Of a stretch of 64,000 bases of DNA, positions 56,818 to 61,527 are shown in pieces. A model generated the notes under the pieces. It was given only the letters and a program-made list of their open reading frames with translations, was not told the DNA's origin and searched no databases. Position numbers and translations under genes: made by a program. Position 1 is the stretch's first letter. Each line of letters opens with the position of its first letter. This DNA comes from Candidatus Sulfotelmatobacter sp. Lineage in GTDB: Bacteria > Acidobacteriota > Terriglobia > Terriglobales > Acidobacteriaceae. Location of the stretch: the NCBI GenBank assembly GCA_030041215.1, contig JASHOH010000169.1, forward strand, positions 1 to 64,000, written 5' to 3'.

Positions 56818-56922
56818 TGTCATCCCGAGCGAGGACGCTCGTTCACGTAGTGAACGAGCACCGCAGTCGAGGGACCTTGTGTTTCGCTGGCGTACCAATC
56901 CGCTGCTCCGCTCGGGATGACA
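56818..56922. repeat. Family B element with terminal inverted repeats (MITE-like)
   Basis: TGTCATCCCGAGCG...CGCTCGGGATGACA; internal CTCGTTCACGTAGTGAACGAG hairpin; CGAGGGACCTTGT core. Confidence 0.8.
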
Positions 56923-57010: not shown

Positions 57011-58408
57011 TTACTTCAAATGCACTGCCGCTTCGGTCTCTTTATACTCGCCGGCGCTCTTCTTCACTTTCGGCATTCCATACTTCGGTTTGATCGCGTG
57101 GCAGCCTTCTTCGCAGAAGACGCCGCCTTCGGCTGATTCCGGCGTCGGCATCGGAGAGTTCACCGCGATCTCGCGCTCTTCTTCTATCACCCGCTCGACA
57201 TCCGCAATCAATTCCGCGTTTTGCTGGCTGGCCAGCCATTTCTTTTCTTTCACCAGATAATTCTCAAAGCGTGCAATCGGGTCGCGCTTCTTCCAGAAGT
57301 CGAACAGCGCTTTCGGCACATACGCCGCCGCATCGTGAATGGCGTGGCCTTTCATGCGCATCATCTTCGCTTCAATCATCGTGGGACCCTCGCCACGGTG
57401 GGCGCGTTCAACAGCTTCATGCGCCGCGTCGTAGACCTGGCATGCGTCGGTGCCATCGACAATCACTGCCGGAATGCCATATCCAATGGCGCGCTCAGCG
57501 AGATCTTTGCAGCGGTACTGCATCTCCGACGGAGTCGAATACGCCCACTCGTTGCTCTCGACCACAAGCACCAGCCCAAGATTCTGCACGGCGGCGAAGT
57601 TGATACCCTCGTAGGTGACGCCGGTCGACTGGCCTCCGTCGCCGATGTAGGTCATGACTGCGATGTTGCGTCCCTGCAGGCGTGCACCCACTGCCACGCC
57701 CGCCATCACGGGAATCAGGTCGCCGAGCATGGAAATCGGCGAAACCATGTTGCGCTTTTCGATGTCGCCGAAGTGCGAGGTGCCGTCGCGGCCTTTGGTT
57801 GGCGAATCGGCCTTGGCCATGTACTGCATCATTACGTCCGACGGATGAAAGCCGCGCACCAGCAGCGACCCCTGATTGCGAATCATGGGCGCGAACCAGT
57901 CGTCTTTGTCGAGCGCGTAGGCCGAGGCGCACGAGCAGGCCTCCTGGCCGAGGCCGAAATAAACTCCTCCGACCACTTTGCCCTGCTTGTAGAGATTTTC
58001 GAGCGCAGTCTCCATTTTGCGGTTGAGCAGCATGTAGCGGTAAATCTCGATTGCCTGCTGCTTGCTGAGATATTTGGAGTCGCGAATCGGAGGCACGGCT
58101 GCGCTCAGATCGCCTTCGACTTCGTAACGTACGTGGCCGTCTTTCTCCGTGGCCTGGCGGACGATGTAGTTCGGGTGCTCGAGGCGGTAGTCGGGGATGG
58201 AGTAAGTGCGGAGAGAATGGTCATGTGGGGACAGCCGCCCTCGGCTGTCCGGCCGAGCGGAACTCGACTGACCCTCTTGGGGTGCCCCATTTCTCGCCGC
58301 TTTTGCGAGAAGTGGGGCCTTTGGCCCGTTGCGCGGGCGGTTGCCGTTCGAGTTCGCTTTGGATTTTGTTTTTTTGTTGGGCATATGAATGCGGCGCGGA
58401 AGGCGCAA
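57011..58408 (-). CDS. 2-oxoacid dehydrogenase E1 component, alpha subunit (ATG likely at 58384)
   Basis: QGKVVGGVYFGLGQEACSCASAYALDKDDWFAPMIRNQGSLLVRG...YIGDGGQSTGVTYEGINFAAVQNLGLVLVVESNEWAYST. Confidence 0.95.
   Translation of the reverse strand: MRLPRRIHMPNKKTKSKANSNGNRPRNGPKAPLLAKAARNGAPQEGQSSSARPDSRGRLSPHDHSLRTYSIPDYRLEHPNYIVRQATEKDGHVRYEVEGDLSAAVPPIRDSKYLSKQQAIEIYRYMLLNRKMETALENLYKQGKVVGGVYFGLGQEACSCASAYALDKDDWFAPMIRNQGSLLVRGFHPSDVMMQYMAKADSPTKGRDGTSHFGDIEKRNMVSPISMLGDLIPVMAGVAVGARLQGRNIAVMTYIGDGGQSTGVTYEGINFAAVQNLGLVLVVESNEWAYSTPSEMQYRCKDLAERAIGYGIPAVIVDGTDACQVYDAAHEAVERAHRGEGPTMIEAKMMRMKGHAIHDAAAYVPKALFDFWKKRDPIARFENYLVKEKKWLASQQNAELIADVERVIEEEREIAVNSPMPTPESAEGGVFCEEGCHAIKPKYGMPKVKKSAGEYKETEAAVHLK
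58229..58318. repeat. Two-hairpin palindromic repeat inside the E1-alpha coding sequence
   Basis: GGACAGCCGCCCTCGGCTGTCC (58229-58250) and GCCCCATTTCTCGC/GCGAGAAGTGGGGC (58284-58318). Confidence 0.75.
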
Positions 58409-58527: not shown

Positions 58528-58887
58528 TCACCGTGGACTAAATGTGCCCGGCTTGTCCTTTTTTACTCGTACCTTTGCGGCCGGAGAGAATGCCGCCGCC
58601 GATACGAATACGTCGTAGAAGCTGGCCGGCACCGTTGCGGAATATCCCCCGTTTGTATCTGTCATGACGCTGACATCGGAGTCGATGCCGATTTTGTCGG
58701 TCAGCCCGACCTTGCTTCCGGCGGGGTCCCAGTGGACGAGGACTCTCGCATTGGCAATCACCGCGCCTTCTACGTGGCGGACTATGCCGGAGATTCCGGG
58801 CTTGGTTTGGGAGACGGCCGGGAGCGAAAGACGGCTGAACAGTAACAAACAGATGGCGATCCTTCTCATTAAGACTCCTCTGTTCAT
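58528..58887 (-). CDS. Hypothetical secreted carboxypeptidase-regulatory-like domain protein
   Basis: Signal peptide; GISGIVRHVEGAVIANARVLVHWDP...VMTDTNGGYSATVPASFYDVFVSAAAFSP; ATGA overlap with lipB. Confidence 0.7.
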   Translation of the reverse strand: MNRGVLMRRIAICLLLFSRLSLPAVSQTKPGISGIVRHVEGAVIANARVLVHWDPAGSKVGLTDKIGIDSDVSVMTDTNGGYSATVPASFYDVFVSAAAFSPAAKVRVKKDKPGTFSPR

Positions 58888-59969
58888 CCCCACGTGAGGC
58901 CTTCTTCTTTGTGAAGCTTGCGTAACTCCTCCGGCACTTGCATCGGCACGCCCACTGTTCTTCCCAACAGCGCGTCGACCGTATCGACCCACAGCATCTG
59001 GCTCTGGAAGACGACTCCGAAGTTGCGCGAGATGCATTCGGCAACGGCGTTGAGATCGAGCGCGCGGCCAAGCTCACACTGCATCGAGGTCACCGGCTTT
59101 GACGTGATGCCGCAGGGGATGATCAGGTCGAAGTAGCTGAGGTCGGTGTTGACGTTGAGTGCGAATCCGTGCGAGGTGACGAAGCGCGAGATGTGCACCC
59201 CGATGGCGGCGAGCTTAGCTTCCGCTGCCTCGCGCAACTTTACTTTTGTGCGCTCCTCTCTATTGTCATCCCGAGCGGAGAAGGACGATTCCGTTAGGAA
59301 TTGTCCTTCGTAGTCGAGGGACCTTGTCTTTGCTGGTCGCGCCGTCGACGCAGGGTTCCTCGACTCCAGAGAACTTGATTCGCTTCGCGAATCGTTCTCT
59401 TCCGCTCGGGATGACAATTCTTTCGTGTCGGTTGCAGCGCGACTGAAGTCGCGCCCCTTCAAAGCTATGTCGTCCGTCCAGACACCGGTCAGGCCGGGGA
59501 TGCGCTTGGTTGCGATGCCGAAATCGGCGCAGGTGCGCATCAGGACTTCTTCAAGGCCGCGCACGAAATCGACGGCGCCGAGGTGCTTGCGGGCAACCCC
59601 AAGGTCCCTCGACTCGCCGTCGCTTTCGCTCCGGCTTGCTCGGGATGACAATGAGTTGGAGTTCGTTGAGGAACGAGCAAAGCCGCGCAGATCGAAAATC
59701 GGATAGCCGACGATCTGGCCGGGGCCATGAAAAGTCACGTCGCCGCCTCTGTCACAGTCGAAGAGCTCGACTCCGCGCTGGGCGATCCGTTCCCGCGACG
59801 CGATCACGTTGGCAGCTTTGGCATTGTGGCCCAGCGTGATGACCGGCTTGTGCTCGAGCAGCAGAAGCACGTCGCCGATTTTTTCTTCTTTGCGCAAAGC
59901 GACGAGCTGCTGCTGCATGCGCAGCCCCATCGCGTAATCGACGGTGCCGAGTTGGACGACGGAGATCAA
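58884..59969 (-). CDS. lipB: Octanoyltransferase LipB, enlarged by repeat-derived insertions
   Basis: LLLEHKPVITLGHNAKAANVI...GGDVTFHGPGQIVGYPIFDLR...IPGLTGVWT...KLAAIGVHISRFVTSHGFALNVNTDLSYFDLIIPCGI. Confidence 0.93.
   Translation of the reverse strand: MISVVQLGTVDYAMGLRMQQQLVALRKEEKIGDVLLLLEHKPVITLGHNAKAANVIASRERIAQRGVELFDCDRGGDVTFHGPGQIVGYPIFDLRGFARSSTNSNSLSSRASRSESDGESRDLGVARKHLGAVDFVRGLEEVLMRTCADFGIATKRIPGLTGVWTDDIALKGRDFSRAATDTKELSSRAEENDSRSESSSLESRNPASTARPAKTRSLDYEGQFLTESSFSARDDNREERTKVKLREAAEAKLAAIGVHISRFVTSHGFALNVNTDLSYFDLIIPCGITSKPVTSMQCELGRALDLNAVAECISRNFGVVFQSQMLWVDTVDALLGRTVGVPMQVPEELRKLHKEEGLTWG
59263..59417. repeat. Family B element (155 bp) inside lipB
   Basis: Perfect 17-bp TIR TTGTCATCCCGAGCGGA/TCCGCTCGGGATGACAA plus internal hairpins AAGGAC..GTCCTT and AGAGAAC..GTTCTCT. 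Confidence 0.9.
59437..59463. repeat. Family A hairpin inside lipB
   Basis: Reverse complement TTTGAAGGGGCGCGACTTCAGTCGCGC matches copies at 50821 and 52186. Confidence 0.8.
59601..59650. repeat. Half family B element inside lipB
   Basis: AAGGTCCCTCGACT...GCTCGGGATGACA, reverse complement of the left half of the 59263-59417 element. Confidence 0.8.
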
Positions 59970-60003
59970 GTTCGTAACGGCGGATTTACGCGGACAAAAT
60001 CAT

Positions 60004-60111
60004 TTCACCACGGAGACACAGAGTCACGGAGAAAACAAATGCATAGATCCTTCGCTCCGCTCAGGATGGCAAGACCGATTTTTCTCCGTGACTCCGTGCC
60101 TCCGTGGTGAA
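60004..60111. repeat. Inverted repeat between lipB and lpd
   Basis: TTCACCACGGAG (60004-60015) / CTCCGTGGTGAA (60100-60111), inner GTCACGGAGAAAA / TTTCTCCGTGAC. Confidence 0.8.
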
Positions 60112-61527
60112 TTAGCCATTAATCGCGATCCCATACACGCTGTTCGCCGCGTCGAGCATGGCTTCAGACAAAGTCGGGTGCGCGTGGATCGTCCACATCA
60201 GATCTTCCACCGTGGCTTCAAGTTCCATGGCGGCTACGGCTTCGGCGATCAACTCTGTCGCCTGCGGGCCGATGATGTGCACGCCCAAAATTTCGTCGTA
60301 GTCGGCGTCGCTGACGATTTTGATGAAGCCTTCGTGCTGGCCGACGATCGACGCGCGCGAATTCGCAGTAAAGGGGAACTTGCCGATTTTCACATTGTAT
60401 CCAGCTTCGCGGGCTTTCGCTTCGGTCAGGCCGACGCTGCCGATTTCGGGATGACAGTACGTGCAGCCCGGAATGTGCTCGGGGTTGATTGGCTTGCCGG
60501 GCTTGCCGGCAATTTTCGCGACGGCGCATATCGCTTCCATCGCTCCGACGTGCGCCAGTTGCGGCGTGCCGAGCACGATATCGCCGACAGCGTAGATGCC
60601 CGGTTCGGCGGTTTGCATCCAGGAATCGGTTTTGATGAATTCGCGCTCGGGCTTGATTTTTGTGCGCTCGAGGCCGATGTTCGCAGTTCGCGGCTTGCGG
60701 CCAACGGCGATCAGAATCTTTTCGGCTTCGATTTTCTGCTGCTTGCTATCGACTGTGATCGTGACGGCCACCCCGGATTTTGTCTTATCGACTTTGTCGA
60801 CCTTTGCGCTGGTGTGAAAATTGATGCCGCGCTTGCGGAAGGCGCGGGCAAGTTCTTTTGAGACTTCTTCATCTTCGACTGGCACAAGCCGCGGCAGCAT
60901 TTCAATGATTGTCACTTCGCAATCGAACGAGCGATAGATCGAGGCGAACTCCACTCCCACTGCACCCGCTCCCACGATCACCAGCGATTTTGGAATCTCT
61001 TTCAGGCTGAGAATCTCGATGTTGGTGAGGACGCGGTCACTCGGTTCGAGTCCGGGGAGCATTCGTGCTTCCGAGCCGGTTGCGAGAATCACGTTTTTCG
61101 CCTTCACATGATTCGCTTTGCTATCAGCGACCACTTCCACGGTGAACACGCCGTTCTGCGCGCCGCCAGTGAGCTTGCCGTAGCCGCGAATGGTTTCGAC
61201 CTTGTTTTTCTTCATTAGAAATTCGAGGCCTTTGGCGTGTTTGGTCACGATTTTCTGTTTGCGCTCCTGAACGGCGGCCCAGTTGAGCTTGCGCGAATCG
61301 ACGCCTTCGATGCCGAATTCTTTCGCGTCTTTCAGGTGGTCCCAAAGCTCGGCGTTGAACAGCAGCGCCTTCGTAGGAATGCAGCCGACGTGCAGGCAGG
61401 TGCCACCGAGAACGTTATCTTTCTCGATCAGCGCGGTCTTCAGGCCCCATTGGCCGGCGCGGATGGCGGCGGTGTATCCGGCGGGACCGCTGCCGATGAT
61501 GGCGACATCGTAGATGGTTTCGGGCAA
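60112..61527 (-). CDS. lpdA: Dihydrolipoyl dehydrogenase (E3)
   Basis: YDVAIIGSGPAGYTAAIRAGQWGLKTALIEKDNVLGGTCLHVGCIPTKALL...HAHPTLSEAMLDAA. Confidence 0.98.
   Translation of the reverse strand: MPETIYDVAIIGSGPAGYTAAIRAGQWGLKTALIEKDNVLGGTCLHVGCIPTKALLFNAELWDHLKDAKEFGIEGVDSRKLNWAAVQERKQKIVTKHAKGLEFLMKKNKVETIRGYGKLTGGAQNGVFTVEVVADSKANHVKAKNVILATGSEARMLPGLEPSDRVLTNIEILSLKEIPKSLVIVGAGAVGVEFASIYRSFDCEVTIIEMLPRLVPVEDEEVSKELARAFRKRGINFHTSAKVDKVDKTKSGVAVTITVDSKQQKIEAEKILIAVGRKPRTANIGLERTKIKPEREFIKTDSWMQTAEPGIYAVGDIVLGTPQLAHVGAMEAICAVAKIAGKPGKPINPEHIPGCTYCHPEIGSVGLTEAKAREAGYNVKIGKFPFTANSRASIVGQHEGFIKIVSDADYDEILGVHIIGPQATELIAEAVAAMELEATVEDLMWTIHAHPTLSEAMLDAANSVYGIAING

Follow-up and report, generated by a model that had tools for sequence, protein, structure and literature searches.

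In-frame palindromic repeats of several families at a predicted disordered turn of LipB in Candidatus Sulfotelmatobacter

Palindromic repeats read in frame within genes are known as REPs from Opitutus terrae, Thauera and Thioalkalivibrio and, as RPE, from Rickettsia (PMC3733652; for GTAG/GTGG REPs also PMC6006769). The only precedent for REPs at the same site noted in PMC3733652 is recB of two Xanthomonas species, and for an RPE-bearing guanylate kinase, Gmk, both translation and activity are documented (reviewed in PMC2229807). GTAG/GTGG REPs are defined by a tag 0-2 nt 5' of a hairpin with a basal stem of 7-20 bp and a loop of 2-5 nt (PMC6006769), and the CGTC REP or RPE-4,6 type by a CGTC/TGTC end, an AT opening the stem, a stem of 8-9 bp and a CCA tail (PMC3733652). 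We found no papers on such inserts in Acidobacteriota, in a literature search that largely leaves out subscription journals. Single in-frame cases are familiar, and the reuse of one spot by unrelated families across a genus looks new. In these soil and peat bacteria, hairpin-forming junk DNA would have been turned into floppy loops of LipB, which is an essential enzyme, and of other enzymes, and 'selfish palindromes in proteins' would pass from a Rickettsia curiosity to something countable: a natural experiment in insertion tolerance, with dozens of species, three conserved enzymes, known 3D folds and empty, filled and nested states, which bears on the origin of disordered loops, the spread of REPs and the treatment of such inserts by gene finders.

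The locus was recognised in a 64,000-nt stretch of DNA (the window, to which all coordinates refer), where a sequence-only reading had described a mobile palindromic element inserted in frame in lipB. The features concerned are as follows.

58884..59969, minus strand: lipB, lipoyl(octanoyl) transferase, 361 aa, sole copy found in the genome (Pfam/TIGR profiles, genome search)
59217..59474, minus strand: insert 2, 86 aa or 258 nt, comprising G hairpin, T unit and inverted T unit (ortholog comparison; pLDDT 36-60)
59351..59417, minus strand: T unit A, TTGTCATCCCGAGCGGA + hairpin + GGAGTCGAGGAACCCTG (sequence, inverted-repeat analysis)
59263..59326, plus strand: T unit B, which faces unit A, TTGTCATCCCGAGCGGA + hairpin + GTAGTCGAGGGACCTTG (sequence, inverted-repeat analysis)
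about 59436..59455, no strand assigned: G hairpin GCGCGACTGAAGTCGCGC, the family A of the earlier reading, present in insert 2
59595..59672, minus strand: insert 1, between DLRGFAR and RKHLGAVDF (ortholog comparison)
59600-59652, minus strand: third T unit, within insert 1 (sequence)
59214..59216, minus strand: codon of K252, first residue following insert 2 (aligned to 1w66, invariant in alignments)
59112..59114, minus strand: codon of C286, counterpart of the catalytic cysteine (aligned to 1w66, invariant in alignments)
58225..58239, plus strand: H element GTGGGGACAGCCGCC, in frame and reversed in the PdhA N-terminal extension (ARPDSRGRLSPHD) (repeat/ORF comparison)
56818..56922, no strand assigned: two T units facing each other, downstream of pdhA (pattern search of genome and window)

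The LipB core is continuous through the insert, as had been claimed: the reading frame runs for 361 codons without interruption, and the Pfam LplA-B_cat and TIGR00214 profiles both match it in two pieces. A second lipB was not found in the 5.03-Mb genome. This search and the substitution rates of the core (median dN 0.108, dS 0.98; dN/dS about 0.11, indicating purifying selection) speak against a pseudogene or a second lipB elsewhere, a finding that would have told against the original proposal. Insert 2 is flanked by GLTGVWT and K252LAAIG (KLAAIG) and ends directly before the catalytic lysine K252. In alignment with Mycobacterium tuberculosis LipB (1w66), whose catalytic dyad is K142/C176, K252 and C286 fall on the Lys and Cys, and both are invariant in the LipB alignments; the best PDB fold matches of the predicted protein are the LipB structures 2qhs and 1w66. 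The protein thus has the Lys/Cys dyad and, as modelled, the LplA-B fold of a LipB enzyme. An AlphaFold2 model built with 33 natural sequences places insert 2 between strands 160-165 and 252-256, with pLDDT mostly above 90 in the core, 50-65 in insert 1 and 36-60 in insert 2, the latter lacking secondary structure except for a short helix predicted where it begins; this agrees with the disordered loop that had been anticipated. Hence, given a core under purifying selection and an insert modelled as disordered, lipB is predicted to be a functional gene with a disordered loop. Between lpd and lipB lies a long near-perfect hairpin (TTTCACCACGGAGACACAGAG...CTCCGTGGTGAAA, 60003-60112) whose loop contains a T-like fragment. 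No Rfam family matched at the gathering score; a mir-999 hit to this hairpin scored below the cut-off and was taken as spurious.

The 17-bp perfect terminal inverted repeat on which the original proposal rested is present (59263-59279 and 59401-59417), embedded in arms of 30 nt with 90% complementarity; the hairpin beside it is there too. The '155-bp TIR element' that the inverted repeat was thought to delimit is, however, two T units facing each other. BLAST of the genome gave no further full copy, all other matches being half-length (53-73 bp), which excludes a single 155-bp mobile element; what repeats is the half of ~60 nt. The core of the inverted repeat, TGTCATCCCGAGCG, has 61 occurrences across the 5.03 Mb of the genome with at most one mismatch, the reversed pattern none, and with at most two mismatches it has 10 matches in the window against 0.86 expected, so the repeat structure in insert 2 is not due to chance. 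Each T unit consists of TGTCATCCCGAGCGGA, a hairpin and GNAGTCGAGGGACCT; the flanks are nearly constant and the stem is hypervariable. Across 20 distinct units from fetched loci the paired arms of one unit are 91% complementary, compared with 44% across units, figures affected by the choice of arms for best pairing; left arms share only 32% identity from unit to unit and flanks 93-99%, the latter partly by construction because the search pattern fixed part of the flanks. T-pattern copies number 2-168 per genome in all 45 genus genomes (reversed control 0 per strand), and many convergent pairs occur in another genome (G001) too. T is open in five of its six frames, a state matched by 3% of letter shuffles; a general 'design' of the repeats to be stop-free was rejected, H, V, G and E (below) being no more open than shuffled letters.

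Four further families accompany T: H (GTRG-GGACAGCCG-loop-CGGCTGTCC), V (GTRG-GGGCGGACG-CCCT-CGTCCGCCC), G (GGGCACGACTTCAGTCGTGCC and variants) and E (GCGGCTTTAGCCGC). Copies with the H/V pattern number 2-183 per genome, again in 45/45 genus genomes (reversed control 0-2 per strand). In H and V the tag lies directly 5' of the stem; in H it reads GTGG in 31 and GTAG in 14 of the fetched copies, most remaining letters at this position arising because palindromes were counted from both strands. With both strands included and the stem fixed by the search pattern, H has a 9-bp stem and a 3- or 4-nt loop in 94/100 contexts, and V a 9-bp stem and a 4-nt loop in 9/10. By tag, stem and loop, H and V can thus both be classed as GTAG/GTGG REPs, which they also resemble in being multi-copy, partly paired or clustered and in some cases in frame. 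T, by contrast, begins (T/C)GTCATCCCGAG and has no GTRG at its hairpin foot. Set against the CGTC REP type, it has the TGTC/CGTC end followed by AT, an outer stem of only ~4 bp, an inner stem of 11-13 bp and the tail CCT. Measured against MITEs, the T pair has the 17-bp TIR, and a target-site duplication was not evident by eye between filled and empty sites. Convergent T pairs with a spacer (59263-59417, 56818-56922) are arranged like REPIN/BIME dimers, from which T differs in lacking the GTRG tag. The likeness to Rickettsia palindromic elements drawn in the earlier reading holds, as far as published descriptions allow comparison, for palindromes that sit in frame within conserved enzymes and add peptides to them; RPE are, however, 105-150 bp long with one conserved peptide, whereas the units here span 24-65 nt, T stems are hypervariable, H and V are REP-type by tag and hairpin, and the host is an acidobacterial genus that is not, as far as known, an intracellular parasite.

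A locus search identified Candidatus Sulfotelmatobacter and other Terriglobales MAGs as the closest relatives, the named genus members all being MAGs. Our genus sample comprised 45 genomes: 36 with LipB readable across the site of insert 2 (site 2), four with split or partial genes and five without a match (G008, G013, G030, G031 and G068, where LipB may have been lost or the assembly may have a gap; G030 is 95% and G068 93% complete). Site 2 is filled in 33 of the 36, with 17-91 aa, and empty in three (4 aa in G005 and G067, 7 aa in G033). As had been supposed, LipB elsewhere has few residues here (in the sampled genomes, 6-15 in another family of the order and 4-18 elsewhere in the class), and orthologues outside the genus carry no homologous domain; the insertion is lineage-specific. 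Read from the DNA, the 33 filled sites contain T in 12, H in 12, V in five and H with an inverted T in one, the other three being diverged or unassigned, one of them resembling an eroded T. One turn is thus occupied by three or more unrelated families (T, H, V), sometimes with nested repeats. In all readable genus LipBs the inserts are multiples of three and stop-free, with no frame broken. The notion of one mobile family inserted once into lipB therefore stands for genomic palindromic repeats that leave the frame intact; it fails in that several families, rather than one element, have used the site repeatedly across the genus.

The tree built from the LipB core, inserts removed, requires at least 18 state changes at site 2 and at least 13 at the site of insert 1, counts that are approximate because the tree has weak nodes; sister rows include a filled and an empty member (L100 and L110; SH-aLRT 98). 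AU tests, each comparing two trees only, reject a single clade for T (1.3e-10), H (9e-6) and V (1.2e-3), and on these trees a single origin of each family at the turn is rejected. We regard it as highly probable that several REP-type families insert repeatedly into this turn and that in-frame insertions are tolerated as disordered loops. One old composite insert of T, H, G and E in the ancestor, its present variety produced by partial deletions and few new insertions, would account for the composites in L011, L042, L043, L059 and L064 and for junction spacers that resemble one another within a type (DPNP-LSSR..., DA...DAHVGTAA...); it is nevertheless distinctly unlikely in view of the AU tests, the empty members, the exactly unit-sized inserts, the V inserts and the unrelated palindromes at the LipB turn in L099, L100, L106 and the Granulicella MAG L112, to which the two orientations seen in LpxB and the nesting of REP in REP (below) may be added. 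E elements occur in the LipB inserts of L042, L059 and L064. Some of the apparently independent insertions could instead reflect gene conversion, or an old composite insert that was partly lost.

The same pattern recurs in other proteins. In the source genome of the window, tallied from fetched copies only, T or H is in frame in Pfam-recognised ORFs for an MTTase-like radical-SAM protein, agmatine deiminase, LpxB, an ABC exporter, a molybdopterin oxidoreductase, a UvrD-like helicase, a glutamyl-tRNA-synthetase-like protein and a WD40-like/S9-type protein; beyond LipB, LpxB and agmatine deiminase at least six further genes are affected. The pdhA gene (57011-58408) encodes a PdhA with an N-terminal extension that includes the reversed H. 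In LpxB, the loop EALRR..FFGVGG across 28 rows is empty in seven, holds H forward in five, H reverse in 14, both in one and other sequence in one, with 10 changes of state; sisters differ, as in L231 (forward) and L235 (reverse; 100/99) or L220 (reverse) and L238 (empty; 100/99). The agmatine deiminase loop likewise varies in state across the genus. Compared with known intragenic REPs, then, the same loops are filled genus-wide, by several families, in both orientations and with nesting. An adaptive LipB domain, serving for example partner binding or regulation, would suit an insert that almost all members of the genus carry, next to the catalytic lysine, but we consider it very improbable, since unrelated sequence replaces the insert between close relatives, G005, G033 and G067 lack it, it is predicted to be disordered and the same repeats lie in unrelated enzymes.

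Nesting takes a regular form. A 24-nt palindrome enlarges the H loop by exactly 24 nt in LipB and agmatine deiminase of some species, keeping the frame because its length is a multiple of three, and with LpxB (the L231 case, by eye) three enzymes are affected. Palindromes close to CTTCGACAAGCTCAGGGCAGGCTC sit in H hairpin loops at L061, L207 and L253 and, by eye, at L231, L254 and L262. It is conceivable, although unlikely, that these loops are true landing pads, insertion being directed to existing hairpins or to a site feature; a 24-nt unit entering a 4-nt H loop would then keep frame automatically, and protein loops would grow by a site-directed mobile system. We think repeated occupation best explained by the tolerance of the turn together with the tendency of REPs to form pairs and clusters.

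Under repeated insertion by several families, short palindromic repeats with a 5' tag and hairpin would multiply in Sulfotelmatobacter genomes and occasionally land inside genes, survivors being those that keep frame, are stop-free and fall in a solvent-exposed turn. In LipB the turn from strand 160-165 to the K252 strand would qualify, as would the loop following DLRGFA. Over the history of the genus, elements would have come and gone at these turns, replaced one another, paired up and nested, and the inserts are presumably translated in the cell as disordered loops on a catalytic core that stays unchanged, probably with effectively neutral consequences. Removal of the hairpin stretch from RNA, or its bypass in translation, leaving a protein without the insert, is hardly credible despite strong hairpins whose stems are conserved by pairing rather than sequence, for bypassing does not require inserts that are always multiples of three and stop-free, and no Rfam family matched at the gathering score.

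Genes like RAYT (TnpA_REP), with which GTAG/GTGG REPs are associated, are present in the genus as well, Y1_Tnp genes being found in 43/45 genomes. Among 36 Y1_Tnp loci examined none had H or V copies nearby, unlike RAYT-linked REPs, and only one had a T copy, more than 1 kilobase away, so that the link to a mobiliser is indirect and no mobiliser of T was found among these loci. A class-3 Y1 transposase, with its published CnGA foot, is only a lead for T. For the GTRG-tagged families, mobilisation by RAYT/Y1 transposases is likely, as H and V have the tag and hairpin of REPs, Y1_Tnp genes are nearly universal and one Y1_Tnp of the source genome (L094) is flanked by E-type repeats and GTGG-tagged hairpins in inverted arrangement. 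Around L094 (G000:C15, near 48504) repeated GGGTGGCGCAGCGG hairpins and GCGGCTTTAGCCGC elements appear, inverted downstream, in a REPtron-like layout.
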